Part shown: positions 432 to 22,650 of the stretch, one piece after another
Position numbering within the stretch: the first letter of the stretch is position 1
Layout of the letters: each line of letters begins with the position of its first letter
Source: Phytophthora colocasiae
Taxonomy: Eukaryota; Oomycota; Peronosporomycetes; Peronosporales; Peronosporaceae
DNA length: 64,000 nt
Direction: 5' to 3'
NCBI GenBank assembly: GCA_018806915.1
Contig: JAGKQI010000059.1
Coordinates: 1,672,991 to 1,736,990, forward strand
The notes under the pieces: generated by a model
Seen by the model: the letters and a program-made list of their open reading frames with translations, nothing else
Database searches by the model: none
Told to the model about the DNA's origin: nothing
Position numbers and translations under genes: made by a program

Positions 432-446
432 ACCGTCCCTCTCGTC
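432..446 (-). other. Polypurine tract of element B
   Basis: On the minus strand the tract reads GACGAGAGGGACGGT and directly abuts the LTR start. This is the expected plus-strand primer for reverse transcription. Element A has a comparable tract (AGGAGGGGCGGT) in the same place. Confidence 0.75.
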
Positions 447-805
447 ATGTGCTCTCATTGAGAAATTTACTCTCGAGGTGAAAGGACACGATGAGACGAA
501 GTGGGGCGACATCATCTTGGACATCCAAAACTCCCAGTCGGTCTAAACCTTCAGGTTGGTCCGGTCGGAATGTTCAGTCCAAAAACGGTCGATCAGTCCG
601 GCGGGAGCTTTGTGTCCACGAAAATTCAGTCCAACAGGAGATCTCCTTTCTCCCTCCTTTCTCAGCAAACTCCAACTCCGTTCTTCAACTGGCGGAGGTC
701 GCTTCCTTTCTGCGCCCCGTCCCAAGTTACCCAATCAAGACTCAAATCAAATCCAAACGGCAGTTCGCCAATTATAACCCGATTTCCAAGCTCTTGAACA
801 CATCG
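447..805 (+). promoter_or_regulatory. Leader between 3' LTR and antisense gene of element B
   Basis: About 360 bp separate the LTR from the chosen start codon of the antisense gene. The antisense frame is open upstream to 491, but the residues before the ATG at 806 show no similarity to the element A protein. I read the stretch as 5' leader. A promoter firing out of the LTR in antisense direction, or within this leader, would be needed. I see no clear TATA box. Confidence 0.35.
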
Positions 806-3595
806 ATGGCGACCCCAAGTAGCGCCTCGGCGTCCGACGCACCTGCGACAGGCGCCTCGACTTCACGCGCATCTTCCGATGCTCTTGCGGCGACTGGCGC
901 CGACGACGACGGTGGTGGCGGCACGGAAGTGTCTGCCGGAGCGGCTCCCAGCGGTTCCACGGCTGAGGATGACTTCAGGGAGGAGGACGACGACAGCGGC
1001 CACGTGTCGGAGACTCCTGCACCTCCTTTCCCAGACACGGCGAAGGTACCTGGCTCGCTCGTGACCATCAGAGAGGCCTCCAGCGTCGGATTGTTCAAGC
1101 GCAAGGCTGTGTCCACTCTCACGTTGGGGCCCGGTCATTACACTTTGGAGGACATGAGTTCCGACGAGCGCGTTCGTATCGCTGGAGTCCCATTGGCAGA
1201 TCGCCACTTGGAGCATGGTGTCTTCGTCCAAGATGGGTATGGTGGTCTGGAGGGCATGGTCCAGCTGGAGAGTCTGTCAACTGCAGAGAAGTCCGAGTTG
1301 TTCCAGTTCTTCGATGATAAAGTGAACTTGGACTATCGCGTGCTGGTGCCCCGAGATCGTCCTCTGGATGGGGATGCCCTGGATTCCGAAATGAACAACC
1401 TGCTGGTCCGACGGGAAGTTGCGTCTATCCTGACGCAGTTCGAACCCGAAGGTCTCGCTCGTCGCGTGTTCGGGACGGTCTCTCTCCTTCGTCGCGTCAT
1501 CCAGAAGCTCTCCCGGAACCAGACACTGCTCGAAGATACAGACGCGGCGGTGACGGATGCACTGGCTGTCCAGGACTCCTTGGACAACTTGAAACGTGAG
1601 TCTCAGCTGAAAATTCAAGCCCTGGAACGGCTTGTATCGATGTCGGCAGCCGAGAAGGAGGAACTCGTGCAGAACTTCCGAGCTGACACTTTACAGCTCA
1701 TCCAAGAACACAAGCGCGACAAGCAAGGTCTCCAGCGTCAGGTTCGAGATCTGCAACAGCAACTAGCCGCCGCCAAGTCTCGCCAATCCTTTAGTCCAGT
1801 TGGACTCATGAACTTTCTCGGTCACGGTGGAAATGGAAATTCGGAGCTCCAGTTGAACTGGGAGCGTCTCTTGGAACTTTTGATTCACTTTCGCTATGGG
1901 GTCCCAGTGCCGTCGTCCTGGCGTACCATGATTACTGTGATGACTCCAGATGACACTCGGCACACGTTCCCGCCATTCACGCAACTTCCTCGTTCGGAAG
2001 ACGGTGATGAATCCAAGGAGAGCGATCCTCCGGCCGGCGGCGAGATCGACCTGACGAAGGCTTCGTCCAAGTCTTCCGGTTCGTCGTCCTCCAAGAAGCG
2101 ATCTGGACCTCCAACCGGACCTTCAAGCTCCAAGCGCCGCAAGAAGTCTCGAAAGGCTCCAGAGGAGGTTCAAGAGCGACCCGATGGGTGGATTGCTCAC
2201 TCTAACGAAGACTGTCTCTCCGACAAGTACCCGTTGTCTTGGACTGTGGAGAAGGCTCGGAAGTCTCTGGCAGATCACCCGGTTGCTTGGGAGGATCTCC
2301 GTTTGGACGTCCAGATGCTGATTCGCACGGGCGTCCCGTTTCCAAGTGTGATCGAGTGGCTGAACGATGATCGTTCGGCTCATTTTGGCTTCCAGTTGGA
2401 TGTCCTCCTCTCGATGCTTGTCCGGATGATGTACTGGAACGCACTGGACGACGTCCACTGGACAAAGTACGTCCCTCGCCGCTACTTCAGTATAGCCGAT
2501 GCCATTCTGGCTAATCTCGTGGAGCAAGATGTTCAGCCGGAGTTCTGGGGTCCAATGGTGGAAGGCGAGTCTGGAGTTGAAGAAGATCCCGATCCTGAAG
2601 CTCTGGTCGAAGACAAGGATGACAAGTCCAAGGACGAGGACTTCCACCCGGACGACGACGGAAATGCCGAAGAAGAAGAAGAGGAGGAAGATATCCAGAC
2701 TCCTCCTCCACGTTCTGCACGCCGTCGTCTGAGCTCCAGCAGCACACCTGCCACGCCGAAATCCTTCAAGAAGTCTCGTCGGAAGAAGTCTGCCCGGACG
2801 GCTCTCGCTCGGAAGGACTACGAAGACCTTACCCAGTCGGAGAAAGAAGTGATTGAGAGCCCGGACGACGAGAACAAGTCGTGGCTGCACTACGGAGTCC
2901 GGGTGAAGCGTGGGGACCCCATGTATGGGGTGTCGCTCCAGACGTTTGGATTCCCGGACTACGCACCCAACCGTTGGGACATCAAGATCTTGAAGTCCCG
3001 TTCGACAACCAAGTTCTCAGAGATCCAGCAGCTCATGGCGGACGCACCTTGGAGTGAGATGTTCTCCAACCGAACCCAAACGTTCTTCTTTCACAAGCGC
3101 GATGACCTCTCGGATGACACGGTGGAAGCGTTGGGTCGGTGGATCAAATTCGTCTCACGGAATGTCCGGTCGTTCTGGAACGCTGGTCACTGGTTGACAT
3201 TGGATGGTTCGGCCGATGCTCCCGCTCTCGTACGTCAGATGCAAAATGATCGGTCGAACCACCAAGCGTCCTTCCGGAAGCGCGTTCTCGCACTCCAAAC
3301 GGAGCTGGATCCCGACATCCCGGACTCACTTTGGATGGAGCCTGGCATCTGGGCGTACCCGCACAAGCTGTGCCACTGGATTCTCATGGATCCAAAGCAC
3401 GTCAACCCGGACACTTCGGCGCCGTATACTGTCCAAGAGCAGTTGAAGATCTTGGACAAGCGTGAACCTGGACGAGCCCAATGGGGCCATTCCAAGTCGG
3501 ACAAGGAGCGCATTGCGCACCTCCCACCAGACGTTCGTGCCAAGTTGATTCCGGCCGGACAACGCGTGAAGTTCTCTGACCTGTGGGCACTATGA
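806..3595 (+). CDS. Antisense protein of element B, 929 residues, intact, function unknown
   Basis: This is the longest uninterrupted frame of element B and it runs opposite to gag-pol, between the 3' LTR and the pol end. I start at the ATG at 806, which opens an Ala/Ser-rich N-terminus like that of element A's copy. Order: disordered N-terminus; block RREVASILTQFEPEGLARRV (about 190-230); coiled coil (about 240-325); an NWERL...P-W-T-I block (about 350-385); NLS-like KRRKKSRK (about 440-450); a block with W-KYVP (about 480-560); an acidic stretch with an E run (about 585-630); a basic stretch (635-665); C-terminal block (690-925) with SWLHYGVRV, GFPDY, FFFHKR and EPGIW. All blocks recur in element A (16255-19298). 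There is no signal peptide or membrane segment, so it is not env-like. A nuclear role is only an inference. Confidence 0.85.
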   Translation: MATPSSASASDAPATGASTSRASSDALAATGADDDGGGGTEVSAGAAPSGSTAEDDFREEDDDSGHVSETPAPPFPDTAKVPGSLVTIREASSVGLFKRKAVSTLTLGPGHYTLEDMSSDERVRIAGVPLADRHLEHGVFVQDGYGGLEGMVQLESLSTAEKSELFQFFDDKVNLDYRVLVPRDRPLDGDALDSEMNNLLVRREVASILTQFEPEGLARRVFGTVSLLRRVIQKLSRNQTLLEDTDAAVTDALAVQDSLDNLKRESQLKIQALERLVSMSAAEKEELVQNFRADTLQLIQEHKRDKQGLQRQVRDLQQQLAAAKSRQSFSPVGLMNFLGHGGNGNSELQLNWERLLELLIHFRYGVPVPSSWRTMITVMTPDDTRHTFPPFTQLPRSEDGDESKESDPPAGGEIDLTKASSKSSGSSSSKKRSGPPTGPSSSKRRKKSRKAPEEVQERPDGWIAHSNEDCLSDKYPLSWTVEKARKSLADHPVAWEDLRLDVQMLIRTGVPFPSVIEWLNDDRSAHFGFQLDVLLSMLVRMMYWNALDDVHWTKYVPRRYFSIADAILANLVEQDVQPEFWGPMVEGESGVEEDPDPEALVEDKDDKSKDEDFHPDDDGNAEEEEEEEDIQTPPPRSARRRLSSSSTPATPKSFKKSRRKKSARTALARKDYEDLTQSEKEVIESPDDENKSWLHYGVRVKRGDPMYGVSLQTFGFPDYAPNRWDIKILKSRSTTKFSEIQQLMADAPWSEMFSNRTQTFFFHKRDDLSDDTVEALGRWIKFVSRNVRSFWNAGHWLTLDGSADAPALVRQMQNDRSNHQASFRKRVLALQTELDPDIPDSLWMEPGIWAYPHKLCHWILMDPKHVNPDTSAPYTVQEQLKILDKREPGRAQWGHSKSDKERIAHLPPDVRAKLIPAGQRVKFSDLWAL

Positions 3596-3891
3596 AAGTC
3601 CAAGCGAGTGTTTTCCATCTGGATGCCTTCGTAGCCTTGCATATTTCATACGTAGTGACCCCACAATAATCATCCAGAATACACTCACCTTCATTTCCAT
3701 CACTGTTCCATCTCGTCATAGCTCGCCATCTCGTCTCCAAGTTTCACCATTCGAAAACTCCAATCTCTAACATGTCCACAGTCACTCGAACACTCCAAAA
3801 GGTACAATCAAAATCAAATCAATGTCCGTCGTAACAGTTCCAATAGTCACACCACCCGGACGTCCAACATGCCATAAGACTTGTTGGACGT
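3596..3891. other. Spacer between convergent pol and antisense gene, element B
   Basis: About 300 bp separate the antisense stop (3593-3595) from the pol stop (3892-3894, minus strand). Element C has the same spacing. The region must end transcripts from both sides. I see no clear polyadenylation hexamer or long hairpin. Confidence 0.5.
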
Positions 3892-4010
3892 CTAAGCCCG
3901 GGGATGATCGTCCCCTGCCTGCATCGCTTGGAATCTCGCCCGCGCTCTTGCTCCTTGATTGAACTCATAGAGCAGGGCACCGCAGCTGAGTTGCGACACA
4001 GGTAGCCATT
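3892..4010 (-). pseudogene. C-terminal chromodomain tail of element B pol
   Basis: The minus strand encodes WLPVSQLSCGALLYEFNQGA, then an Arg/Ala-rich stretch ending GDDHPRA and a stop. This aligns with the last 39 residues of element A pol (WLPLSKLNCGALLYEF...GDDHPRV). The preceding part ends in KGYDEPE at 21243, across element A. The Trp codon is split by the insertion and its bases lie in the CATT duplication. Removing element A and one CATT would restore the reading frame. Confidence 0.93.
4007..4010. repeat. Target-site duplication CATT, left copy
   Basis: CATT directly precedes the 5' LTR (TGACATG...) and recurs directly after the 3' LTR at 21243-21246. Four to six bp is usual for Ty3/Gypsy integration. 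Confidence 0.9.
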
Positions 4011-4923
4011 TGACATGATGTTAATTCCGATTTTCGAGCGACAGGTGGATATTACGTTACGATGTGATTGGTTATACTATGGGTTATAAGCGAAAGGGAC
4101 TTTGGGACGCGGCCGCACCCGTGCGACATCTGTGGAAGATTGTGGATAAACCTTCGCCTGACTGTAAAGGGGCCCAAAGGACCAGAAGTGTACTTCAGAG
4201 TGTGCACAACTCTGAAGGTCAACTACACTCTGTCTGGTCACCGGACTTTCCCCGACGATGAGTGCCTAAGTTCTGGCGGAAAGTCTCTCAGAAGAACGTA
4301 TCTCTGAGAGACCTCATCCCGTTACCGTCCAGCGCGACGATGGATGGTTCAAGGATTCACAATATATACCCGCAGAGACCAAGTATCGCGCGCCGGACGC
4401 CGCGCACCCGCGGAACCCTCAAGATCTTCATGTACGTTGAAGCATTAGTGCTCCGTACTCTGGTTTCGTATTCAAGACTCTGGTATCTCTAACTCTGAGT
4501 GACCAAGACTCTGAAAAACCAAGTGATATCGGACTCTGAAAACCAGGATACCAGACTCTGAAACCACCGAAGATTCAAGACCATACTGAAACCAAGTGAA
4601 CCCAAGTTCAAGTCACGCATTCAAGTGATTACTGACCTGCACATCCCCCGTAATGACGTCTCTACCTGTCAACCCATCGAGATCGGCTGCACAGATTGCA
4701 TACTGAGACCAAGTCAAAGTACCAGATGTATACAAAGACCAAGAGTACCTGAGATATGAAGACTGACTGCATAAAGGACGCAAAAGACGACAAGAAGGAG
4801 AGAATTACCAGAGATATATGATAGTTATGAGGAAGATAAACGATAAACAGAGTTCAATTTGCTTGCTACTGCACAAGTCCGCTTGAGAGGTATCCAAGCC
4901 ACTGCGTCATCACGTACGTCGTG

Positions 4924-4961
4924 TGATCTCCACCAAATTCAATCCCCTTAGGTGGAGATCA
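4924..4961. repeat. 11-bp inverted repeat in the LTR of element A
   Basis: The arms TGATCTCCACC and GGTGGAGATCA are perfect complements with a 16-nt spacer. They lie about 200 bp upstream of the TATA box. Solo LTR D keeps the same pair with slight changes near 34438-34476. It could be a dimeric protein site or an RNA hairpin; I cannot tell which. Confidence 0.6.
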
Positions 4962-5139
4962 GGTAACGTAGAGACCTGAAAGGACCCGCCTATTCCATAT
5001 CCTAGTTGGGTCGTTTGTTTTGTCTCTAGCGGTAGCCCATTTCATATTGATCGTTTGGACAGGCTCTGGAAACTAGACAGTCGTTTTCAGAGTGCAAGGT
5101 AGACTGTTGTATATAGCCGATTGTATTGGTTTATATTTT

Positions 5140-5156
5140 CCCTCTATATAAGAGGG
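5140..5156 (+). promoter_or_regulatory. TATA box inside an inverted repeat, 5' LTR of element A
   Basis: CCCTCT-ATATA-AGAGGG places a TATA element between perfect 6-bp arms. Solo LTR D has the same layout with 7-bp arms (34654-34672), so symmetry is kept although the centre changed. It is the likely core promoter of the element; the genomic RNA would start some tens of bases downstream. Confidence 0.6.
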
Positions 5157-5230
5157 TGGTGCGCGAACGTAAAGGGATACCAGACAGACCAGGTGTCTGG
5201 TAGCGAGTCCCTAGTTGACCTGGAGTGTTA

Positions 5231-5268
5231 GCCCACCGTTCAAGGGCCAGCCCACCGTTCAAGGGCCT
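5231..5268 (+). repeat. 19-bp tandem duplication of a conserved LTR hairpin motif
   Basis: GCCCACCGTTCAAGGGCC is present twice in tandem. A single related copy lies downstream of the promoter in element B's LTR (31761-31777, minus strand) and in solo LTR D (34749-34765). All are followed by a GAAAG-ATAAGA-like stretch. GCCC/GGGC ends can pair into a short hairpin. Position suggests a role in the transcribed leader, but that is inference. Confidence 0.6.
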
Positions 5269-5717
5269 AGAAAGAATAAGAACGGCTGTATATATTTGTA
5301 TATTTTCGAACTCTGTATATTGGTTGTTTATCTCTGAAAGTCAGGTATCTCGGTTCTGGATTTGTGATATTCAGACACCGATTTCAGACTTTCTCTGGTA
5401 TATTAACCTCTTTTCGACCGCCGACTTCCTGGAGACCATCTTGGTTCCCAGAGATTCCGACCCCCGAACGCTCCTGGAAGGATTTCCTGAATACCGACAC
5501 CAGACTTCAAGGGAACCCCAACCTCTCTTCACAACACACTCTCAGACTCCGGCGAGGGTCATATTTCCGAAGACAACGAACCCACGAGGATACCGCAAGG
5601 TACCACACGCCAACCTACCGTTGTACGGCTCTGAAAACCCCTTTTCAGTAGTCGTATAACTAGGGTTCACTATACGCCCCTGCTCCGCGACCAAAGTTTC
5701 ACCGACTTCGCGACAAC

Positions 5718-5735
5718 TGGTGCGCGCGCCCGGAT
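5718..5735 (+). other. Primer-binding site of element A
   Basis: TGGTGCGCGCGCCCGGAT begins two bases after the LTR and is complementary to a tRNA 3' end including CCA. It differs by one base from the primer site of element B, so both use the same or a closely related tRNA. I cannot name the tRNA. Confidence 0.8.
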
Positions 5736-5808
5736 CTTTGGAATCGTGATATCACCGGATTTGAGAGTACAAGAAGAGAAAGTTTCCTGTCAAGCGTCTA
5801 TATTCAAG

Positions 5809-8800
5809 ATGGCTACGCCAGGATCTACGAGAGGAGGACGCCGTGGTCGTGGTCGGAGCATTCCGCCACGCCAATCCAAGCGTCTACAAGGTTTGTCGCC
5901 TGAAGAGCAACCAGACTTGGATGCTATCCAGAAGGCGGCCCGCGAGAAGAGGAGAGCTGCGCGAGAGAAGAAGGCAGCTGAGAATGTGAGCGTCCCAGAA
6001 CCGGCGGTCGAAGACCAGCCTGCTGAGGAACCAGAAGCTCAAGAGACACCTGCTGTCCCTGGTGAACAAGGTTCTGAAGGCTCGTCAGAAGTCGAAGCTT
6101 CTGGTGACGAGGCGACCACTGCCCGCGAGGGCGGTGATGAGGCGTCTGAGGGAGGCGCCGATATGGTTGAGTCCCCGGAAGTGATCGATCTGTGTTCAGA
6201 TTCGGCAACTTCCGGCCAGTCCGTGGATGAAGTGAAACCAGAACCCGGACTCTCTGAAGAACATGTTCCACGGTCCCCAAAGTCTGAAGACGCACCAATG
6301 TCTGATGACATGGCGATCAAGTCTGAAGAGTCTCTGAAGACACCGTCTGACGAGTCTGGGAGGGCTGATTCGCTTGACGGGGAACGAGCTCTGAGGTATG
6401 TGCGCCGTGAGTTCCGCCGTTGGAGAGATATGGACACAGGCAAGGTCGTCCCGCCAAGCATCGAATATATGTGGCCGACGATGAAGCCTAGTGCTGATGC
6501 TTTCCAGAAGGCTGCTGCAGCGACCGGTGACTACATCAAATGGCGATGTTCCTCAGTTTTCCCCGAGGATATGTGGATCTCAGAGTTTCACGCGAGGCGT
6601 CATAGTTTTGGTTGGATCCAAGACCTGTCTTACGTTGAGATTCCGATGAGCACGTTGACAGCACCGGAGTGTGTGGCTGTTCTTCAGACAATGTTGTACG
6701 AGGCAGGTTTCGAATTCCAGAATCTCCTCCCAACCTGGCCCCAGACGCAGGCGTCAGCCGTCGTTGGGTCTCAAGTGCGCAGTGTGGCGTCCGAACTTCA
6801 GAGTCGACTCGCAGTAGAATTGGTTGAGTGGGCCACAGTGACCGCCAGGTTACAAGTTTGCCGACTCCCAGAAAGCATGAAGCAAGAAGACACAGCTGGC
6901 AAGAACGAAGCAAACGGTGTATTACCTGACGAAAATGCTGACCTACAAGGACAACGGCTGATCATGCGACTCCGGGTAACCGGACTCCGAGTGACGCACA
7001 GCTCTGATGGTTCCAGCAGTGACGAGCCGCCGCAGTCCAAGCGCTTACAGCAGAGACCGCCGCGCCCACAAATCCCGTCGACACCGTCAGCTTTATCGAC
7101 GCCATCGCTATCTTCACTGCCGCAGTACGAGAGCCGCTCTGATAACACGCGACCAGAGTCTGAAAATCCAATGTCCGAAGATCACAGCATCTCTCAGACA
7201 CAGATGTCGGACGTGCCAATTCCCAGTGTCATTGGGACCTCAGACGACCAGTCGTCGGGTTTCCAGACTTCACGAGGAAGCTCTACGGACTCGTCCTTGA
7301 TGTCCATGAGTCGAGGGGCGGCATCACATATGCCGCCGCCCACAGGAAGTCTGGCGTTGATCGCTCAAGGCGCTGATGTAGGAGGAACAGTCTCTGAAGG
7401 CATGGGGATCCAAGTGACGCGAACGCTGTTACCAGTGAAACCAGAGTCCGAGGATGTCGACATGCCGGAAGAGAGGCCAGAGGTGCCGGGCGCGGAGTCT
7501 GGAAACCAGGTGTCTGTCAGAAGTTCTTCACGGGAATTCAAACAATTGTCTCCGGAGATTCCGCCTGTATCTGCCTCCACCCGAAGCGAGAGTCACCAGA
7601 GCCACCGCCAAAGTGTGAAGAGTGGAGACCTTCCGAGACCACCGTCCCGACGCTTGAGTTCCATTGCGTCGGGTCGTACGAAGTCTGAAGCTCGAAGCTC
7701 TCAGAGATCAGGGCCTGCCCAGATCGAGTTGAACGTCATGAGGCAACAGCAGGAGTGGCAAAGCCGGATGGAGCAGGCGCAGATGGAGTTCTTGGCCCGA
7801 GAACGCTTGGAGACCATGGAACGCGATCGTCGTCGAGAGCAACGTGACTTGGAGGCAAGACGCGAAATTCAGACGCTCACCGAGCGCTTGTTGAAGTCGG
7901 AGAACGCGAGGCGGGAGGCTGAGAGACGCGCCGACGATGCTGAAGAACGCAGAAGTCTGGTATCTGAAAGCAAGCTCAGGAATCGCAGCGCGGCAGAGTT
8001 GGAAACTCTGAAAACGGAGCTCCAGAACTCTGAAAATCAACGGCTGGAATCAGTGTTTGCTGAACGCTGGCGACAAAGAGAGGCTGAGATTGAAGCCGAA
8101 CGTGCGCGTGCGACTGACGAGATGAAACGGGACTGGATTTCTCAAATGGAAGCCTTACAACAGCGAATGAAAGTCATGGAAGCCGAGCGCGACAGGGAGA
8201 AAGAAAGTTCTCAGAACATGCAACGGTTCCAAGCCGGTCAGTTGAGAAACCTTCGAGCAACATTATCCCAAGTTCAAGAAGCGCGAAGGGTCGGCCACCC
8301 TGATTCAGCAACTTCAAACCAAACGTTACAAACAGGCAACCCTGAAGTTGCAACTATGTATCCAGTATCAGGGTCAGAAATCAGAAGTGACGCAAGAAGG
8401 GTTGGGGTTGAACCCATGTCACATTCACCGGCTCTCAAGACGGAATCTCGAGAGGTTGCAACCTTCCAGCAAGGCACCCCTGCACGAAGCACGGGGACGA
8501 AGCGAGTGAAGCCTGAGAGGAATGGCGGCGCTACTGCTGCTACGGCCACCCACGTGATTCAAGCGACCTCGGTGACAGAGACCAAGGGCGATACTAGACG
8601 TGCGCCTACTCCGAGACGAGATCCGCCGCCGAAAACTGAAGCTAGACGGCCTAATGGAGATCGAAGAGCGTCTCGCAGAGCGAAGCGTCATGATAGAGCA
8701 CCAGACTCTGGTGGAGACTCTGACAATTCAAGCTCAGACTCTGCGAGCTCGTCATCGGAGGACTCAGAGCCAGGTGAAGTGATGAATCTGACGGCAGCAA

Positions 8801-10052
8801 CTCAAGCACAAGCCGGAACCACACTTCTGACGCTAAGGCCGTTCATGAACTCGAACAACCTTGGGGAATTCGACCCCAGAGCTACTCTCAGGGAACGTGT
8901 CCACTGGTGGGAGCGATTTACGAATATGGCTTCTCAAGGAGGTTGGTCGACTAAGACGCGCATCCAGGAACTTAAGTTGAAGCTCCTGTGTCTGCGCGAG
9001 ACTGGTTTAACCAGCTACCCAAAAGTGTGTCCCGTGACTGGAAAGAGCTGTCTTCAGAGTTCAAGAAACGTTATTGCAAAGCTCGGTCATCGTATTCTGA
9101 GAGATACTTCACTATGGCTATGAAAGACTCTGAGACTCCGCTTGAATTTTTCTACCGACTTAATTCTGCCGCTGGAAAAGCTGACATCGATTTCCGGAAG
9201 TCGTCCAAGCGTCTTGAGAAGCATGTACTGCGATTCATCACGAAGCTTAAGGATGCACGCCTGAAAACGTCGCTACAAGGTCAGAGATTTCGAAGAATTT
9301 CAGACTTGGAATATGCGTTGCAGCAAGATGAAGATGTGTGGCGAACTGGTGACCAAGAAATGACCCCTGCCAAGTCTCGAGACTTCCGGGCTGACAATAT
9401 TCCGCGAGGACAGTTCAAGCCCAAGCGTGTGCATCGGACTTATGTCGCAAGAGATATGGATTCTGAAGACTATGACTCTGACAACTTTGAAAATCATAAG
9501 GAATCTCTGAAATCCAATCAGGATACCAGAGATCAGACAGGTGATTCCAGAACTCCAAGTGCGACTTCAGAGTCTACCCGCGATGAAAGTACTGCGCAGG
9601 CATCTTCGAACAATTCAAAGGCTCCACCAAGTGCAGACTGGACGCAGACTCTGACGAATGAGGTATATCGAGTGATGGATAACATGGGATGGCGTCCGCC
9701 GCCCCAGTCCCCGTCTGGATCGTCAGGTCAAGGATTCCACCAGAGGCGTCATGAAAATAGTGGCTACTGGAACAAGTTGTGTGAAAAATGTCAACGCTCA
9801 GGACACTCAGAAGATTGCTGGAGAGACGTCACGTGTGACCGATGTCAGGAAAAGGGACACCCGAGTCGAATGTGTCGGATGCCACCCTGTGAAGTATGTG
9901 GAAGAGTACACCCTGGAAAACCCTGTGAAGATTTGAAAACTCTGGAAGCACTCAAGCAACTCGCTCGACAAGGTGCACTCAAGGACATGCCGAACCACCT
10001 ACGGGAGAAACTCCTGAGTGATGAGGCAGACTCTGGGAAGCCGTTAAACTAA
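5809..10052 (+). pseudogene. gag: gag of element A, very large, one frameshift
   Basis: I start at the ATG at 5809 (MATPGSTRGGRRGRGR). The protein would be about 1414 residues, roughly three times a usual Ty3/Gypsy Gag. Order: Arg-rich start; acidic and Ser/Pro-rich region; a globular stretch near 6380-6870 shared with element B; a long coiled coil (about 7730-8260) rich in Glu/Arg/Gln; a Lys/Arg/Ser linker; a capsid-like domain (8830-9350, with VHWWERF and WKELSSEFKKRY); three Cys-His boxes (9778-9930). A one-base loss near 8985 shifts the frame (the second half reads from 8988), judged against element C. The first zinc box is CX2CX4HX3C, one residue short; the second is canonical; the third is CX2CX3HX4C. 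It ends SGKPLN-TAA inside the frameshift signal. Confidence 0.9.
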
Positions 10053-10101
10053 TATGCCCGTCGGATGGGGATCCGAAACGCGCCGGGCATGGCGTTACCC
10101 C
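10043..10101 (+). promoter_or_regulatory. -1 ribosomal frameshift signal between gag and pol, element A
   Basis: The heptamer G-TTA-AAC (10043-10049) sits in the gag frame directly before the stop TAA (10050-10052). After a 6-nt spacer a two-part hairpin follows: outer stem GCCCG/CGGGC (10056-10060 with 10084-10088), inner stem TCGGAT/ATCCGA (10061-10066 with 10071-10076), and loop GGGG. Pol is open in the -1 frame from upstream of the stop onward. The loop GGGG could pair with CCCC at 10098-10101 as a pseudoknot. Elements B and C have the same module, B with paired compensatory changes. GUUAAAC is known from arterivirus frameshifting. Confidence 0.85.
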
Positions 10102-11044
10102 AGAGTTGTGTGTTCTAGTGTGTGTAGGGCCAGAGCTGAGAAAGATTCACGATAACACTCAACAATGCATGACTACTTTTGCCCAAGAATCGACCATACC
10201 CTCTGGAAACTCAGGGAACGAGCTACCTGAGATCACCGACGACGCCGACCCGACACCAGACGACTCAGTGTCGTTCAGGTTGAAGGATAGCGAGTGTTAT
10301 GGCTGGTGGGAAGATAACTACCCTGATCGGTCAAAGAGGGATGTGGTGATGGTGTATGGTGCTGTGAATGACCATCGGACCAAGATTCTCTTGGATACTG
10401 GTGCGACCATAAATATTCTGAGTTACGACTTTGCGCGTAAGCTCGGACTCAGACTTAAGTCGCACAAGCAGACCAAGGTGTCAGGAATGGGTGGTGTCCC
10501 AACATATATTGGTGCCAGCGCTGAGATCAAATTGACGCTTGGGCCAAGAGTGGTATATATTGTGGATGATTGGGTCGCGAATATCGGTGAAGGAATTGAC
10601 GTGCTTCTGGGAATGGGTTTTATGTTTGCTGCTGGAGTGAGAATCAGTGCTCGTGAAGGTCTGGTATCGTTACCAGACGAGGTAGTGGTGATGATGTGTA
10701 ATTGGGAACCTGGTGATCACATTGGTCGTAACAGGTCGGTTAGACCCAGCGAGGCTGTCCTTCTGAGTCCGGGTGAGGAGTTTATTGTCCGAATTGACTA
10801 TGGCCCAACGAACCCCCAGAGGGAAGTCGTGTGGGCCGGACGCGGTGACCGCTGGGTTACCCAGCTGATCTATGCGGCCCGATCTTGGCCCGTGGCCGTT
10901 CGCGTGGTAAACATCTCTGATAAAAACACGTGGGTCAATGAACTTTCTGATGTCGCGAGGATCGTGGAATATGGTTTCTTTCCAAGGCATGGACGTTTCG
11001 TGCGTCCAGGTTCTGCTGCCTATCGTGATTGGGAGGTTCTGATT
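10049..11044 (+). pseudogene. pol: pol part 1 of element A: aspartic protease and linker
   Basis: This is the -1 frame entered at the slip site; no separate start codon is needed because it is made as Gag-Pol. The first residues (LICPSDGDPKRAGHG) bridge the gag stop. The retroviral-type protease has its active site at LLDTGATINIL (DTG codons 10394-10402) and a later hydrophobic VDVLLGMGF-like segment. It would release Gag and Pol products. The frame continues in element C without a break into RT. Here a two-base loss near 11045 sends it to a stop at 11074. Confidence 0.88.
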
Positions 11045-12965
11045 CGGGGAAAGCACCCCGTCACCAGAAACTAAGAAACGTATGAAGAGAGAGGCGGAGT
11101 TGGAGGCTTTGATGCCGCAGCCCCCGTGTGTAGATCGCCCGGACTACCCATGGCCGACTGAAATACTGCAACGTCCAAGGTTTGATAACGCTCGAGTGCA
11201 GTTCGTGAAACCAGAGTCACCACCGACCGTGAAACGAGTACGCTTCGCCCTGGATGCATTCACCCAGACGGAGAATGGTTGCTCCGGCGAGTCAACGGGA
11301 AGTGCGGACATTAGTACAGATACCAGAGATTTGGAAACCTCCTCTGAAAGTACTCCACATACAGACCCTGGTGACTCGTCCGTTGTTATTGCCGGTGACG
11401 TCCTTGACTCAAAGCCTGAGTGTCTATTAGGTGACTCTCAGACCCCTGAGTTACCCGCGGACGATTTCGACCTAATGGATGAATCCTGGGATATTCCCAT
11501 TCAGGGGATGCCTGGAACGCCTGTGGAAAAATTACGAGTGGAATACGAGCGGTGCATGAATGTTTCGAATGAAGAATTGGACTTGGAGCCGGGTGTATAT
11601 ATGCGAGAAGGCACGGAACTCCTCGCTCAATTACGTGACCAACTGGTCATGTTGCCTAAGCTGGAAGAGTTGACACCAGAGTGTGATATCGACAGCGCTG
11701 ATGTTGGAGAACCAGGAAAGACGACCCCAGAAATGGAGAAGAAACTGCGTGATATTCTGAGGTACCACAGGAAGATATTCCTGGGAGATGGCAATGCAGC
11801 ACCCGCACCGGCAAGGGGCGTGGTCTGTGATCTGGATGTGGGAGATGCCAAGCCGGTAGCTCAACGTCCGAGATCCGTCGCCCCTCATCTCATGCTGAAG
11901 GTATACGAGCTTCTAAAGAAACTCCTGGAAACTGGTTTGATCGAGTACTCTAACTCCCCGTGGGCATCTCCTATTGTGATCGTTCTCAAGAAGAATGGTG
12001 TTGACATACGGATGTGCATCGACTATCGCATCGTGAATGGCTTCATTCAACTGTCGCGTTACCCTCTACCTCTTATTGACGATCTCTTAACTGGTTTTGA
12101 GGCTGCCATGTGGTTCATGAGCCTGGATATGGCTAGTGGTTTCTGGGCGATCAGGATGACGGAGCGCGCACGACTGATATCAGCTTTCATTTGCCCGTTT
12201 GGACATTTTCAGTGGGTAAGGATGCCGTTTGGACATTTTCAGTGGGTAAGGATGCCGTTTGGTCTGAAGAACGCCCCTCTTGTGTATCAGGCTATGCTAG
12301 ACAATTGCCTGTGGGGATTCGTGAGACTGTCACCAGAAGAAGAAGCTGAAGTCGATGCGGAGGTTCTGGAATTTCTGCAACTCCAGCCTCAGGACTCTAA
12401 AAAGCATTTTTCAGACTCTGAGAACCATACTCCGATTTCAGAGATGCCAACCCTCACAAGTCAGATGACCGTCTTTCAGAGGAACATTCCTGTTCCCACG
12501 TGTATGGGCCCAGTCCTGGGGAGGAGTTCATACATCGACGACATCGCACATGGAGCACCGACTTGGGACCAATTATGTGACGATTTGAATGCCCTGCTTT
12601 TCAGGCTTCGCTATTGGAACATTTCTGTGAGTTTGCCCAAGAGCGAGTTCGGGAAGTTGTCGATACCGTACCTATCCCACGAAATCAGTGCCGAGGGTCT
12701 GAGGGCAACACCTAAGATTGTCAAAGGAGTCGAAGAACTGCCATTTCCGTCTACGTTGAAGGGAGTTCAGAGTTTCATGGGAAGCCTCAACTATTACAAC
12801 AAGTTTATTGAGGATTTACCGGTAATTGCTGCTACCCTCTATGAGCTGACGGACGAGCAGATTCGTGCTGGACGAGACCTGACTCGTGCGAAAGAGGCGT
12901 TCGAAATTCTGAAACGCAAGATAGTCTCTACTCCACTACTTAGACATCCAGACCGAACCAGACCG
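11045..12965 (+). pseudogene. pol: pol part 2 of element A: reverse transcriptase
   Basis: An acidic linker (11082-11830) with IQGMPGTPVEKLRVEYERCM and LEPGVY motifs leads into RT. Recognisable pieces are LIEYSNSPWASPIVIVLKK, RMCIDYR, LDMASGFWAIRM (first catalytic Asp), RMPFGLKNAPLVYQ, and SYIDDI (catalytic YIDD at 12531-12542). Between the last two motifs lies an extra acidic stretch of about 75 residues, also present in B and C. A 30-bp in-frame duplication repeats PFGHFQWVRM (12195-12254) and probably harms the enzyme. A two-base loss near 12966 breaks the frame before RNase H. Confidence 0.9.
12195..12254 (+). repeat. 30-bp in-frame tandem duplication inside the RT of element A
   Basis: Units 12195-12224 and 12225-12254 are identical and encode PFGHFQWVRM twice. 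Elements B and C each have one copy in the same place. The duplication therefore arose in the element A lineage, next to the conserved PFGLKNAP motif. Confidence 0.95.
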
Positions 12966-14831
12966 TGTTGTCATTCCGCATGCGAACCCTTGGGCTGCTT
13001 CAGCAGTCTTGGGACAAGAATATGAGGGAATAATACACCCAGTCCGGTTTACGGGTCGTGTCCTGAACGATGCCGAACTCAGGTATCATATCGCTGAGAA
13101 AGAGGTGATTGCGATCCTCAGAGTTTTAGAAAACTTCAGAGCTCTGGTGGAGTCAAGTCCGGTGATTGTGGTCTATACCAGATACTCTGTCCTGAAATGG
13201 TTGCTGACATCGAACTCCACCGACGGCAGAAACGTCAAGTGGGGTATGAAGTTGTCGCAGTGGAACCTGGAGATCCGCCGGGTACAGCGTGACGAAGATG
13301 GACTCCCAGCTATACTCGGTGCGGGCATTACCCCCAGGGAGCATCTGGACGAGGTCTCTGAAAATCTGATCCCAGTCAAGGGGCGAGTCAAGCCGCCAGT
13401 TCCTATCAGTGTGGAAATGCTGGGAGCAGATTATCAGGGCTATGTTCTGAGTTTTGATGGTGCCGCAAAGACGTCTACCCGTCTGGGAAGCTGTGGGTGT
13501 ATACTCTGGGAACTCCCGGGGTGGAGCGTTCTGGAAGCCCGAGGGTTTCCCCTGACGGATGTCACGGTGAATGACTCGGAATATTGTGGCCTGAATTACG
13601 GTCTGAAGATGGCACTCGACCACGGAATACAGGAGTTGGTGGTTGTGGGAGATTCGCGCATCGCGATACAACAGGCTCAGGGACTGATCAACTGCAATCA
13701 GCCTAACTTGCAACGGAGGTTAGCCGAATTTGAGTCTCTGAAGACCAAGTTTCGGACTCTGAAGTTGGTGCATGTGAAGCGCGAGTTTAACCAAGCAGCG
13801 GATTACCTGACCTCGAAGACTTTGACTCTTGGGGTAGCCTGGCAGGTGCAAGATGAGGATGAACTTGTGCACCTGCAACTGGTATCCAAAGTTCATGAGA
13901 AACTGATGAAACCTTGCTCAACCCCGGACATGGAAGTTCACGAGTCAAAATCAGACTCTGAAAATCATAATGCGTCACCAGAGTCTGAGAATGTTTTTGA
14001 TCCGGAATCCGCACCCCTACCTCGATCGGTCAGAGTGTTGATTGCTGTAACCCGTGCCCAAGCTCCGCCTGACGCTAATCTTCCTGAGGGTGATGACGAA
14101 CGAGAACCTTTGGGGCCTTTGGAGTTCCAGGCAGAACGCTGGCGACGGATCAAGGCGCATCAGAGCCAGGACCCGTACTTGGTTGAACTCATGAAGTTTC
14201 TGAAAGGTGACGTGGGAGATTTACCACGACCCCGAGTCAGGAAGCTTGCCAGAGTTGCTGAGGACTTCGTTCTGGATTCTAGAGATGTACTATATCGCCT
14301 GAGTCGCGCTACTCGAGAGCGGCCCCGGGACAACGTTGACGAACTCAGACTGGTGGTTCCCAGAGACTTGTATCCAGACCTGTTACACTATGCTCATGAA
14401 GACTACCAAGGTGGACATCAAGGAATCAGGAGAACCTTTGAGAAGTTGAGTTCGGAATTTTACTGGTTGGGTATGTATGCCGATGTGGAGAGATTTGTGA
14501 AGGAATGCGTAGACTGTGCCAGTGGCAAGGGGCGACCCCCAAATCCTGGACCGTCCCCTGGAAATATTGAGCCCAGCCGGCCATTTGAAGTGGTGTCTAT
14601 GGATTTTGTGACACACATGCCGAAAACCGCACGTGGAAACACATTTCTCTTGCTGTTCCAGGATATGTTTTCGGGATACGTAATGTGCAAGCCAATGAGT
14701 GTCACCACTGCTCAGGATGTAGCAGAGGCTTATGAGGAACGCGTTTTCAGAAACTTTGGTGCTAGCTCTCTGATTCGTCATGATCAAGATCCTCGTTTTA
14801 TGAGTGAGGTGTTCAAGTGTTTCAGGAACTT
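12966..14831 (+). pseudogene. pol: pol part 3 of element A: two RNase H domains and first half of integrase
   Basis: RNase H 1 (to about 13330) keeps the Glu of AEKEVIAIL. It lacks the first catalytic Asp (HAN-WAA in the relatives) and has YTRYSVL where TDH is usual, so it looks inactive. RNase H 2 (about 13440-13840) keeps the full set: SFDGAAK, NDSEYCGL, VGDSRIAIQQ and NQAADYL. The integrase follows with a zinc region (HYAHEDYQGGHQG...CVDC) and catalytic core residues in VSMDFVTHM and RHDQDPRFMS. A one-base change in the T run near 14832 breaks the frame in the core. Confidence 0.9.
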
Positions 14832-15779
14832 TTGGGTAGCAGACAACGCGCTACTCTAGGATACCGGCCTCAAGCCAACGGCCAGCAGGAGAGATCAGTA
14901 CAGACTGTGGTGCGCGCGATTAAGGCATATATCTCTGAAGCCGATCAAAGTGACTGGGATGATCACGCCGAACGTCTGATGTTTGCCCTGAACACGTCAT
15001 TCGATGCCACCCGTCTGGAGACGCCTTTCTACCTGGTACATGGTTGGGATGCTCATGGGACGGTGTCCGCTATGCTTGGACCCAAGCCATCGACGACTCA
15101 GGAGCGAACTGCGTACGAATGGAGACGGAAGATGCAACGAGACTATAGCTATGCTCTGGCATGTGCCGAAGATCTCCAGAAGAAGGCAAAGCGTGACCGG
15201 TCTGAAGAACAGACCAGAAAATGGAACGAGTTGTCAGAGCGTCTGAAGTCAGGTTTCGCTATAGGCGACGCTGTATGGCTCTACATCCCTAAGGTACAAA
15301 CGGGATTGAGCAGGAAACTAGCACACATGTGGCACGGACCCTTCAGGATTGAGGAGATGCTGGACGATTTCAGAGTACGACTAAAGGTTGAAGATACCGG
15401 CTACCGCGTGAACCCCTGGGTCCATGTGAGCCGTCTGAAGCCAAGGGCTCTGTTCCCCAGACGACCCACGGTGGAACTCCAGATTCCAGAAGATGATGAT
15501 TTTGACGCCGCCCTGTTACCAGAAGATAGCTGGGAACCTGATATTGAAAACGGCGAGTATGAAGTGGAGAAGATTCTGGATACCCGTTGGAACAAGCGTA
15601 CCAGGACGTCCAGACGCCTGCGCGAATATTTGATTAAGTGGAAAGGTTACGATGAAACTGAGTGGTTGCCGTTATCGAAGTTGAACTGTGGAGCATTACT
15701 TTACGAATTCAATCAGAGTGCACGAGCACGAGCCCGTTTTCAGGCGATGCAGGCTGGAGACGATCATCCCAGAGTCTAA
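14832..15779 (+). pseudogene. pol: pol part 4 of element A: integrase C-half and chromodomain
   Basis: The frame resumes with LGSRQRATLGYRPQANGQQERS, supplying the third integrase catalytic residue (Glu of QQERS). A GPFRIEE / YRVNPWVHVSRLKPR module and an acidic linker follow. The chromodomain spans about 15558-15715: YEVEKILDTRW, YLIKWKGYDETEWLPLSKL. In chromoviruses this domain binds modified histone tails and steers integration into heterochromatin. The protein ends GDDHPRV and a stop. Element B has the same ending. Confidence 0.92.
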
Positions 15780-16254
15780 TAACTATGAAAACACATCTGG
15801 AAGTCTGATATCTGAAGGATTTCAGATATTGACTTTTAGAGTGTGGTAATCTGAGTGCGTGTTTTCAGAGACCTATTTCTGAAATTCATGCGTTTGGATA
15901 TGTGATCGACCATGTTGCTGCTTATATAAAACGACTGTGTGAATGTGAATATGGAAGTGAGTTTGTGGAGAATTAAATACTGGAGGATACGAAGTTATGA
16001 ATGATGAGATGATGAGAAGGAGTGTGATTATGTGGAGTGATATTGAAAGATTAAGGGATTAGGGAGCTACACTGAGGCCGGGGATTTACGTCACAAATGC
16101 AGACAACTATTTGGCTTCTCGAAGATGCAGCCTTCCCGTGGGCACCATGGTGGACACCTGAGCTTCAGTAGTGAAGGGAGATCGGGTTCTCGGAACGCTC
16201 CGCAGGTGTCAATTGATCCTTCTTGATGTCAGCAGGGACATACTGGAGCCACTC
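15780..16254. other. Spacer between convergent pol and antisense gene, element A
   Basis: This 475-bp AT-rich gap lies between two convergent reading frames. Near 15802-15835 an imperfect palindrome (GTCTGATATCTGAA...TTTCAGATATTGAC) could form a hairpin. I see no coding potential. It must hold the 3' ends of any antisense transcript; no clear AATAAA is visible. Confidence 0.5.
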
Positions 16255-19200
16255 TTAGTCCGCATTCACCGTGGCCCATTGCATCCGAGCAGGCTCAATA
16301 GCGTCCAAGTCACCCAGTTGCGTCTCCAGACTCAGACACTTGGGACCCCCCAGCTCTGCGACTCTGGGATCTTGCCAGATCCAAGGGCAGGACTTGTCTG
16401 GGACAACCCAGATGCCAGGCTCTGAAAGCAGCGACTCTGGGAAATCTTTGTGCCCCAGGACCTTTCGGATGAGGGCGTTGTGCTGGCGAATCATGGCGGC
16501 TCGACGCATGGACCGGTACTTGTGAAGCTCCGCAGACTTGTCGGCAGCCTCGACATCCATGGTCACCCAATGCGTACGCTCCCAGAAGGCTTGAGCATGC
16601 TTCTTCATGCTGCGCACAATGTCTTCCACGTCAGCCAACACCATGGGCCCCAGTTCTTCCCGCTTGTGGAAGTAAAACTCTGAGAATCGGTTGTCGAACA
16701 TGACTTTCCAAGGGGCACGCTTCTTGCGGAGGACTGCACAGTACCGCTCAGAGTCCCAGCGCTTCTTGAGGATGGCACATGAGTGCTTGTGCACCTCGTA
16801 GTCTGGAAAACCCAATGTCTGGCCAGTGGTGGTCTTGGTAGAGCTCACTCGTTGTACCCTGATACCATAGTACAACCAGGAGGATGCCTCACAGTCTGGT
16901 GTTTCCACCACCTGGAGCTCCTTGACCGTCAGGGAGTTATAGGGCTTTGACACCAGACTACGCGCTTTCCCAGATGAACTTTTGGACTTCGATCCACTTC
17001 CACTGGTGGACTTCGGGCGAGACTTAGGACTGGTGTGGGCCTTTACGGATGCGATACTCCTCTTGGACTTCTTGGTGGGGATGATAGGTCCATCATCAGA
17101 GTCTGAGTCGTCATCAGAATCCCGGGGACGTTTGGAACCAGGACGCGGGTGGTCATCAGACTTCTTGTCTCCAGACTTCTTACTCCCGGACCTCTTGTCC
17201 CCAGACTTCTTGCTCCCAGACTTCTTGTCCTGAGACTTCTTGTCTTCAGACTTGTCGCTCTCGGAATCGCTGTCGTCAGACTCACCATCATCAGAGCTCT
17301 CGTCGTCGTCTTCGTCTTCAGACTCGATCACACCAGAATCCTTGTAATCCGGATCGTCCTTGGGGTTGTCGGCGGTGGACTCGACATCACTTTCTGGATA
17401 ATTTACGTGACCATCCAGATCACCCCAGGCTGCAGGCTCGGTACCAGCTGAGATGTGACGATCCACCACCTCGTCGGCCATCTGGTAATACACTTCAGGG
17501 ACGTACTTGGCCCAAAGAGTAGCATCCAGGCGACGAGAGAATACCAGGCTCACCAACATCTGAATGAGAGCCGGACTGCTGAAGAGACTGTGAGCCGCTT
17601 TATCCGATGCCAACCACTCCATGGCTTTATCATACTTGATCCCAGATAGCAGGGCTTGGCGGAGGTCGGGTCGAACTTCCTTCCAGACCACGTCACCAGG
17701 GAGTCTCTTGTGGACTTCAGACTTTGCCACCTTAGAATCTGCATTCGCCGGAAGCGCCGATTCTTCAACGGGCTTGTGTCCGGACGGGCGACGCTTCAAA
17801 TTCTTGGAGTCCCACTTGAGCGGTCGCTTCGGAGGTGATTTCAGAGTCTGGGGCTTCGGCGGATATGACAGGTACCGTGGGCTCTCGCTCTTGGACTCTG
17901 AGGTTTCAGTACTTGGACGAGTAAGATCCAGAACTCTGGAGGTCCTCGCGGTCTTCTCAGCAGCCTGACGAGCTCGTTCTTCAGAAAGCCGTTTCTTGAA
18001 GTCAGGAACGGGTTTCTTTCGCGCGTCCAAGGCTGTCACGTTGATGATAGTCGTCCAGTTATCAGGGACGATGGTGTCCTCTTGGTATGACACCAGAAGG
18101 TCATGGAGCCGATCCCAATTACCAGAGATTTCAGAATTCTCTTGTAAGAACTCTGAGAACCCCCACGGATCTGTGGGCTTGACCTCAGGACGCGACTTCA
18201 GAATCGAGACCTGTGCTTGAAGATCAGCGACTTGGGACTTCAGAACTACCTTGTCCGACTTCAGAGCTTCCACTTGGTCCTGGTAGTGAGCTTTGAGATC
18301 CTGAATCTCCGAAGTCATGCGTTCTTCTACCGCACCGGCGTCTTGCTGGGCACACTTAAGCTCGTGTTTCCAGTATTGACAGTGCAGTACCCACTCACGC
18401 TTGATTTCTTCGCATTCAGAGCGCGCTGCTGCAGCATCAATCAAGGCGACACCGTTCTGAGAACCAACGCGTTCCCGAAGGCGACGGTGAGCAGCAGTCA
18501 TAAGCTTTAAGCATCCGGCCGTCCGAAAAACTTTCTCGGCAAGCCGAGTGGGAGAGACATGAGAAACCAGAGACCCCAGTTCCCGGCGAAATCCACAGAC
18601 GACGTCAAAGCATCCAGAGTACGCACGTCTGGAATCTGGGCGCACGGAGACACAACTTCGGCGGGGTCGAAGCTTGGAATCACTCGCTCCAGCTCCCGGA
18701 GGTCTTCATCAGTAAGTGCCTCGTAACCCACGAGCACACAGGGGCCACCGTACGCATTCGCTATGTGGCGCCCTCTTCTGAAGTCTTCAGCTCGCGCGGG
18801 GGTACTCACCAGAAAGGCACGTCCCTCTGGCTTCACGCTGGGAGCGATATAGTTCTGGGGAACATCAGAGTCCCCCACGCCCGTGACTTGATCCCCTGTG
18901 GTTGTCACCAGACCCTGACGAAACAGCCGATCGACCTCTTCCGTAGACAAAAGCCGTGGGGCACCAAAGGCTCGCGGTCTGAAGACACCAGGAGTTCCCT
19001 CAGAGAATTCAGAGTGAGATTACCCACGTGAAACCACTGGTGGCGAGAGATCACCAACACCGGCCGAGTTCATGTCATCACCAGGGAGATCCTCAGTCGG
19101 ACCATCGACCTGTGAGTCGGTAGGTTGGGATGCATGTGCTGGGGCGCTAGGGCTGCCACCTGGCGATGTGGCCGAACCAACATCTCCACCCTGCGACATA

Positions 19201-19298
19201 TTGACAGTTGCCGAAGCAGGACAAGTGCCTGTGGCGTCGCCTGCCGCCCCATTCGGTGGGGCGTTTAAGCTCAGAGAAGCGTTCGTTTCCTCAGTCAT
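16255..19298 (-). pseudogene. Antisense protein of element A, homologous to that of element B; one stop and one frameshift
   Basis: The gene reads from an ATG at 19298 (MTEETNASLSLNAPP; an upstream in-frame ATG at 19484 is possible) to the stop at 16255. An in-frame TAA at 19020-19022 and a frameshift near 18585-18597 interrupt it. The stop lies in a 45-nt GT...TTCAG stretch (18979-19023) divisible by three, so a tiny intron is possible but unproven. Order: Ala/Ser/Pro-rich start; RRELGSLVSHVSPTRLAEKV block; coiled coil (about 18210-18450); NWDRL...PDNWTTI block; Lys-rich linker; W-KYVP block; Asp/Ser-rich acidic region; SKKSGDK-type repeats; C-terminal block SWLYYGIRV, GFPDY, FYFHKR, EPGIW. 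All blocks match element B (806-3595) in order. No known domain is recognised. Confidence 0.85.
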
Positions 19299-19525
19299 GA
19301 GCGAAAGGACGGAGTTTTGAAAATGATCGCCTGTTTGGCAAGTCAAATTCAAGTTTCTGAGTCTGAGAGAATCAGATTGTGCGACGGGACACCAGAGACT
19401 CTGAAAACCAGGTAACTGACAAAGAGTTGCAGCTACGCTACGCTCTGAAAACCGTCTATCAGAATGTTTGATAGGCCTGGCCATGATACACAGCTTGGAG
19501 AAAGTTCCGCACTGATGGATCGTGA

Positions 19526-19539
19526 CCAGGAGGGGCGGT
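19526..19539 (+). other. Polypurine tract of element A
   Basis: The purine-rich run CCAGGAGGGGCGG directly precedes the 3' LTR start. It is the expected primer for plus-strand DNA synthesis. Confidence 0.75.
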
Positions 19540-21242: not shown

Positions 21243-21246
21243 CATT
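21243..21246. repeat. Target-site duplication CATT, right copy
   Basis: It matches 4007-4010 and belongs to the interrupted Trp codon region of the element B chromodomain. Confidence 0.9.
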
Positions 21247-22650
21247 CTGGTTCGTCGTAACCTTTCCACTTGACCTGATACTCTCGGACTCTTTTGGAAG
21301 TTCGGGTCCGCTTGGACCATCGGAGATCCAAGATCTTTTCGACCTCATACTCGTTGTTTCCGATATCCGGTTCCCAACTGTCTTCGGGAAGCAAGGCAGC
21401 GTCGAAATCATCGTCATCGTCCGGTTGGACTTCCACGGTTGGACGTTTCGGAAAGATGGCTCGTGGCTTCAGGCGACTGATGTGGACCCAAGGGTTGACA
21501 CGGTAACCCGTGTCCTCAACCTTGAGCTTCACTCGGAAGTCATCGTGCACCTCTTCAATCCGGAAAGGTCCATGCCACATGTGAGCCAATTTTCGACTAA
21601 GTCCCGTTTGAACCTTCGGAATGTACAGCCAGACTGAATCTCCCTTTTCGAACCCGGACTTCAACCGGTCGGACAGTTCCTTCCACTTTTGCGTTTGGAC
21701 CTCCGACCGATGCCTCTTGGCCTTCTTTTGGAGATCTTCAGCGAACGCAACAGCGTAACTGTAGTCACGTTGCACACTACGTCTCCACTCATAGGCTGTG
21801 CGCTCCGGAAGGCTATTGGCCTTTGGACCCAACATTGCCGAAATCGTACTCCGGGCGTCCCAGCCGTGCACCAAGTAAAAGGGAGTCTCCAACCGGGTGG
21901 CATCGAACGAAGTGTTCAAAGCGAACATCAACCGTTCAACATGGTCGTCCCAGTCGGACTGATCCGCTTCCATGATATAACCTCGGATAGTTCGGACGAC
22001 CGTTTGGACTGACCGTTCTTGTTGACCGTTCGCCTGAGGGCGATATCCCAAAGTAGCCCGTTGGAGACTTCCAAGTAGATTTCGGAAACATCCGAACACC
22101 GCACTCATGAACCTTGGATCTTGGTCATGTCGGATCATCGAACTGGCACCAAACTTTTGGAAGACCACTTGCTCGTAAACTTCAGCAACATCTTGGGCAG
22201 TCGTTGAACTCATTGGTTTGCACATGACATATCCGGAGAACATATCTTGGAACAATAATAAGAACGTATTCCCACGAGCCGACTTCGGAAGATGAGTGAC
22301 GAAATCCATCGACACCACTTGGAATGGATATGCCGGTTCGATGTTTCCAGGCGACGGACCTCCATTTGGAGGCCGTCCCTTTCCACTGGCACAATCCACA
22401 CACTCCTTCACATGTCGTTCAACATCCGCATACATTCCAGGCCAGTAGAACTCCAAGAGTAACTTTTCGTGAGTCCGACGGATACCTTGGTGACCACCTT
22501 GGAAATCCTCATGGACATAATGTAGCATATCCGACCGGAGTGACTCCGGAACAACCAACCTCAAATCACCCAAAAAATCGCGTGGACACTTCTGGGTGAC
22601 AGTAGTCATCCGGTACAGCACATCTCGACTGTCCAACGTGAACAGGTCTG
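21243..22650 (-). pseudogene. pol: pol of element B: integrase and first part of chromodomain
   Basis: One open frame covers the zinc region (HYVHEDFQGGHQG...CVDC), the catalytic core (VSMDFVTHL, RHDQDPRFMS, NGQQERS), the GPFRIEE/VNPWVHISRLKPR module and the chromodomain up to VKWKGYDEPE. It then runs into element A. All three catalytic acidic residues are present, and this is the best preserved sense-strand enzyme of element B. The end of the protein is at 3892-4010. Upstream, the frame is broken near 22650. Confidence 0.93.

Follow-up and report, generated by a model that had tools for sequence, protein, structure and literature searches.

We analysed a 64,000-nucleotide stretch of the Phytophthora colocasiae genome (contig JAGKQI010000059.1, positions 1,672,991 to 1,736,990; hereafter the window) containing two nested Ty3/Gypsy long terminal repeat (LTR) retrotransposons, which we call elements A and B and which appear by their domain content to be Chronos-like. 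Besides gag and pol, these Chronos-like elements have a third gene, which lies between pol and the 3' LTR and runs antisense to gag-pol. This antisense open reading frame (aORF) is a protein-coding gene under purifying selection. The window holds two copies of it, one intact and one broken:

491-3595, plus strand: aORF of element B, intact; 1034 amino acids from the ATG at 491, 929 amino acids counted from 806
16168-19484, minus strand: aORF of element A, interrupted by a stop at 19020-19022, a break in the frame near 18589 and a premature stop at 16255-16257

The original prediction, made from the letters of the window, had proposed that A and B encode related antisense proteins. This was borne out, with an identity of 27-35% that is far above chance; BLASTP of the B protein against the main open piece of A gave 28% identity over 802 aligned positions (E 2e-76). 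It had also described the two families as differing strongly in LTR and gag, in agreement with the long Gag matches of 33% and 39% identity that we obtained. The only nucleotide match listed between the A LTR and the B LTR interval was one of ~80 bp at 80%.

The B aORF, located between the pol of B and its 3' LTR and antisense to its gag-pol, had been placed at 806-3595. The end at 3595 stands, and the start at 806 should be replaced, in all likelihood, by the ATG at 491 (MRRS), a choice supported by the conserved context of this codon in other copies. The start context ATGAGACGAAG was found in all 20 B/D-type loci fetched from the genome (in L021 with one base changed), and these loci have in common the LTR edge, a purine tract and a TCATTGAGnAATTT block a short way 5' of the ATG, the block carrying one change in L014 and one in L024. 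At least 990 codons were open from the conserved ATG at 10 of 21 sites (the window and the 20 loci, L021 having been skipped by the script). One of the D1 loci, L019, contains two inverted aORF copies (855-2971 and 3097-6266) with an identical frame break, apparently a local inverted duplication.

The A frame could not be retained as an encoded protein at 16255-19298, since this copy is broken at the three places given above. Homology reaches 16168, as far as a P. citrophthora homologue (1027 amino acids) aligns past the early stop. A sister copy that is 99% identical at the DNA level (L030) is free of these lesions and has its own instead, and another one (L034) has an open frame of 1140 amino acids. 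The start of A is likely at 19484 rather than 19298, because the N-terminus beginning with MAR is conserved in a further family, represented by L036 (60% identity between L034 and L036 over the first 57 aligned residues). The pol end of this L036 family (C75:33900-37900) is ~93% identical to that of A over the last 320 residues, and its aORF is only ~46% identical to the A type; synonymous sites between L036 and A-type aORFs are mostly saturated.

The gene recurs widely in the genome of P. colocasiae. Searches of its 92.5 Mb, in which all counts are lower bounds and include the query's own place, yielded at least 46 matches for the B protein (44 of 895 candidates scored), at least 60 for the A protein (55 of 1481) and at least 42 for the L036 protein (42 of 1760). 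An open frame of 1100 amino acids or more without a stop was present in 18 of the best 60 A-type matches listed (as counted from the list), and positions 1-1096 were covered without a stop in 16 of the 42 L036-type matches listed. In each of the 20 fetched B/D-type loci the aORF was convergent with the integrase end, 279-328 nt away, a figure that tells the position of the aORF and not the share of elements carrying it, because the loci were picked by their aORF match. An integrase-based search returned at least 125 matches, 77 of A type (96% or more, that of the window included) and 48 others (92-97%). A convergent aORF accompanied at least 38 of the 77 A-type integrase ends; its distance from the end of the alignment was 467-865 nt, in most cases 481-484 nt. 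In the same-strand control, none of the 58 aORF matches was so placed; this census took 58 of the 60 aORF matches, the last two, which were short, being dropped. Among the other 39 A-type ends, the five that we inspected all had aORF sequence, visibly broken or truncated in three of them (L038, L039 and L041). At least 18 of the 48 other integrase matches were accompanied by an L036-type aORF at 388-394 nt (control, 0 of 48), and the single one inspected among the remaining 30 (L037) has a broken aORF of the L036 family. These counts indicate that the aORF is probably present in all or most copies of a family, both in the A type and in this second group.

The ratio of nonsynonymous to synonymous divergence (dN/dS) was calculated by the Nei-Gojobori method on open stretches only, with the exception of the L030 and L031 segments, in which stop codons were skipped. 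L028 was left out of the aORF pair lists, and the integrase control did not include L019, L025 and L028 (integrase not open or only short). The aORF ratios ranged from 0.14 to 0.47 in the B group (15 pairs), from 0.15 to 0.53 in D1 (15 pairs) and from 0.12 to 0.60 in D2 (28 pairs). For pairs with a synonymous divergence (dS) of at least 0.3, they were 0.15-0.17 between L019 and five D1 copies, 0.11-0.12 between the A-type L031 and both A and L030, and 0.12-0.15 between L014 and seven D2 copies, the latter at a dS of 2.2-2.8 that is near saturation. The differences between L009 and L019 number 61, 45 and 166 at the three codon positions (p 2e-21). Four of the five other frames, in four test pairs, gave ratios of 0.82-2.74 and 7-40 stops. 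The fifth, which has its wobble positions in common with the aORF, also had a low ratio (0.23-0.31, with 21-27 stops). The integrase of the same elements gave 0.11 in B (10 pairs), 0.45 in D1 (10 pairs) and 0.05 in D2 (28 pairs), beside 0.33, 0.31 and 0.14, respectively, for the aORF; that integrase exceeds the aORF in the young D1 pairs is a discordant point and indicates that ratios at low dS are noisy. A selected function had been inferred for this frame beforehand, with a dN/dS near 1 across many copies, or absence from most family members, named as the outcomes contradicting it. The ratios of 0.11-0.17 obtained at dS of at least 0.3 are far below 1, and the aORF accompanies at least 38 of the 77 A-type ends and all five inspected among the others. 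Neither outcome was thus encountered, and the inference of a selected function is supported.

The aORF evolves much faster than integrase and about as fast as Gag. Protein distances between families were 0.42-0.72 for the aORF versus 0.08-0.20 for integrase, and identity between A and B rose from 54% in protease to 68% in the second RNase H, ~74% in reverse transcriptase (RT) and 79-82% in integrase, compared with the aORF and Gag values already given. Nevertheless, pairs that are more distant in the aORF tend to be more distant in integrase as well (Spearman 0.87, 28 non-independent pairs), which indicates that the gene travelled with pol. Homologues were found in P. megakarya, P. ramorum, P. 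palmivora, P. sojae, P. citrophthora and P. capsici, with at least 1, 6 and 14 proteins in three protein searches. None of the proteins listed by these searches came from outside Phytophthora; the first of them considered the 8000 candidates with most words in common, and relatives without common five-residue words escape detection, so that absence from other organisms does not follow. No homologue was found in the viral contigs searched. In a maximum-likelihood tree of 23 sequences, for which the program warned of long branches, the A type was split from the rest with 100/100 support. P. ramorum, P. capsici, P. citrophthora and P. palmivora sequences grouped with A of the window on one side, and P. 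sojae, P. megakarya, P. ramorum and P. palmivora sequences with B of the window, D1 and D2 on the other. Since several species occur on both sides, the split between the aORF types probably predates those Phytophthora species.

The aORF protein measures ~1000-1100 amino acids. Its N-terminus is conserved and is followed by a stretch of low complexity, a coiled coil and a basic patch; next come a helical domain in the middle, a tract that turns from acidic to basic and, at the C-terminus, a domain that is again conserved. In B, three of these parts were located as follows (residues counted from 806):

1553-1783, plus strand: predicted long helix or coiled coil, residues 250-326
2156-2545, plus strand: middle helical domain, residues 451-580; the confidently modelled part, with a block mean predicted local distance difference test (pLDDT) score of 79-92
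2807-3520, plus strand: conserved C-terminal domain, residues 668-905

Profile scans and the predicted structure returned no Pfam family and no convincing fold, so the earlier remark that no domain match could be recognised continues to apply. The basic clusters and charged tracts that had been pointed out are present, the clusters in B and in five of the six homologues checked.

Upstream of the gene, the short leader of B contains a candidate core promoter:

432-490, plus strand: leader of B, from the 3' LTR edge (431) to the ATG at 491, with a purine tract (on the complement) and, at 455-470, the motif TCATTGAGAAATTTAC

This motif resembles the oomycete core promoter, composed of an initiator (INR, YCAYTYY), two bases and a flanking promoter region (FPR, MWTTTNC) (PMC3599244). 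It lies ~36 nt 5' of the ATG and agrees at 11 of 13 fixed positions in B, L009, L015, L019 and L022. The leader block recurs with small changes at most in all 20 fetched B/D-type loci.

The elements themselves have the following anatomy:

4011-21242, plus strand: element A, Chronos-like, inserted in B, with LTRs and a CATT duplication
10106-15779, plus strand: pol of A in several frames, with protease, RT, RNase H, second RNase H (PF13456), integrase and chromodomain (PF00385)
31363-32884, minus strand: 5' LTR of B, from LTR comparison
-1097 to 431, minus strand: 3' LTR of B, from LTR comparison; positions 1-431 lie in the window and the rest to its left
21243-27122, minus strand: pol of B as far as the site where A inserted, with protease, RT, RNase H, second RNase H, integrase and chromodomain
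3901-3985: extra piece matching the pol end of A, beyond the insertion of A and listed with the pol of B

Element A is nested within the end of the pol of B, which it interrupts. Its orientation is secure given its LTRs (4011-5715 and 19540-21242, with 1 mismatch and 2 gaps in 1705 positions), the flanking CATT target duplication (4007-4010 and 21243-21246), the purine tract AGGAGGGGCGG adjoining the 3' LTR on its upstream side, and gag-pol on the plus strand. The gag-pol of A (5746-15779) is divided among six overlapping frames, although the LTRs differ by just three changes; post-insertion damage, errors in the assembly or help supplied by other copies may be the reason. The two LTRs of B are 98.7% identical. 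A stretch of ~300 residues is common to the Gag regions of A (5746-9123) and B (29498-31099), with 33% identity and no Pfam match. A partial third element, C, occupies 35.5-42.9 kb. Aspartic protease, RT, gypsy RNase H and a second RNase H (PF13456) were found in A, B and C, and integrase also in A and B, where a chromodomain (PF00385) follows integrase at the 3' end of pol (E 2.1e-8 in A and 2.8e-6 in B). The extra RNase H and the C-terminal chromodomain suggest the assignment of A and B, which we keep at "Chronos-like" because it was made by domain features and not by placement in an RT tree. Element C (33341-42894) has its pol on the minus strand, 75-77% identical to A at the DNA level; the sequence beyond this pol, at 33341-35163, is 73-80% identical to the A LTR, yet in plus orientation, opposite to the pol of C. 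Positions 44000-64000 are filled by an AT-rich satellite, which is built of subunits of 118 bp and 353 bp and has a higher-order period of ~1.65 kb, and a (TTTAGGG)n telomere at 63721-64000 ends both window and contig, so that the elements lie just inside a chromosome end.

As for its role, the aORF product is quite possibly an accessory protein encoded by the element, namely a nuclear regulator, with its gene transcribed from an antisense promoter that lies at the 3' LTR. The antisense mRNA would begin at or beside this LTR; in B-type elements the candidate core promoter is situated just inside the LTR edge, so that transcripts would start there only at the 3' end of the element. The protein would enter the nucleus through its basic clusters and act on its own element, by influencing transcription from the LTR, the export of RNA or what becomes of the preintegration complex. 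A similar action on the element life cycle has been proposed for plant antisense open reading frames (PMC7264820). Given the basic clusters, the coiled coil and the charged tracts, regulation in the nucleus seems to us the likeliest role, and a component of the particle or an antagonist of silencing less likely. Several results weigh against it, in addition to the limits on the locus count and on the ratios noted above. No DNA- or RNA-binding domain was recognised in the aORF proteins, and one of the six homologues checked (P0015) lacks a basic cluster as defined by our search pattern. The promoter-motif match is weak in the five copies named (shuffled-sequence P 0.04-0.10) and not significant in L014 (P 0.43) and A (P 0.20-0.32). 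Moreover, an aORF divergence similar to that of Gag would also suit a particle protein or a host antagonist.

The first of these alternatives, in which the protein joins Gag in the particle or coats RNA or cDNA, could account for that divergence (27-35% identity versus 33-39%) as well as for the coiled coil and the charged tracts. Nonetheless, no profile match to Gag or to pieces of pol was found (best E 0.44) and antisense expression would be an odd route for a particle protein, and we consider this structural or packaging role unlikely. An antagonist of host defence, directed for example at small-RNA silencing or heterochromatin, would shield the element and evolve fast in conflict with its host. 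It is comparably unlikely: fast divergence under overall constraint is what it predicts, and Gypsy elements of P. infestans give small RNAs in both orientations (PMC3522703), but the domain scans recognised no known suppressor domain. An origin as a captured host gene, or as the remnant of another mobile element lodged in the 3' region, seems improbable. While the antisense orientation would suit the insertion of a unit with its own promoter, the gene occupies the same slot in each family inspected, on both sides of the deep multi-species split, and only Phytophthora proteins, with no viral-contig homologue, were among the matches listed; an ancient capture could still be its ultimate origin. 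It is highly improbable that the antisense RNA rather than the protein is functional, or that the frame is a chance opening. Some retrotransposon antisense RNAs are thought to regulate via double-stranded RNA (PMC7264820), but the codon-position bias (61, 45, 166), the dN/dS of 0.11-0.17 and the maintenance of open frames of more than 1000 amino acids in several families all argue for a protein. RNA as the sole function is refuted by the selection results, unless these are an artefact of choosing open copies; an added RNA effect may exist beside the protein.

If the aORF product is indeed a nuclear regulator, Chronos and plant Tat elements would have in common, beyond the additional RNase H that has been published, an antisense accessory gene in this slot whose products are unrelated, and the role of such genes could be compared across two unrelated families. 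Phytophthora entries annotated as "hypothetical protein" (e.g., clusters of 30 and 12 member sequences) would be element genes, and the numerous open copies of several families in this genome would provide natural variation for tests. A broader and more doubtful idea is that the combination of a second RNase H with a nuclear accessory gene, antisense and located between pol and the 3' LTR, is a recurrent package with separate origins in plant Tat, oomycete Chronos and some retroviruses, where a common constraint would favour a self-encoded regulator; the Chronos protein would then found a regulator family of its own, and its fold might be one not yet described.

Chronos elements are Ty3/Gypsy LTR retrotransposons of oomycetes (Ustyantsev et al. 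2017, PMC5348765), characterised by a Gypsy RT, native and additional RNase H, integrase and a C-terminal chromodomain, all of which A and B have. They differ in that the main text of that article, supplements and figures aside, never uses the word "antisense", and neither does that of PMC10508981. No such oomycete gene appeared in searchable titles or abstracts, a search that did not extend to most subscription journals, preprints and supplements. The antisense orientation does not fit an Env-like additional frame, which would lie in sense orientation and code for a transmembrane protein. Antisense frames between pol and the 3' LTR (aORF-3R) have been described in the plant elements Grande, RIRE2, Retand and PvRetro13 and in the fungal element Boty of Botrytis, and nuclear localisation has been reported for the Grande product (PMC7264820). 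The Chronos aORF resembles them in slot, strand and retention in many copies, whereas no sequence relation was recognised and both hosts and element lineage differ. In Retand, 97% of clusters encode PF04195 (PMC11963269, which also mentions HBZ of human T-cell leukaemia virus type 1, HTLV-1). When 12 Chronos aORF proteins were scanned singly with E up to 10, this domain was not among the matches listed, the filters of hmmscan dropping most matches above ~0.1; the Chronos elements, which have a chromodomain, differ in this from Retand and its TRP28. The parallel with plant Tat-type elements that had been drawn at the outset accordingly holds for position and not for domain. HBZ offers another analogy, in arrangement and role: its gene is antisense, is transcribed from the 3' side of its retroelement and codes for a nuclear regulator. 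It acts on the life cycle of its own element and is much shorter than the Chronos aORF protein. What is new here is a gene in the same slot as the plant aORFs, perhaps with the same job, that encodes an unrelated protein in a new group of hosts.

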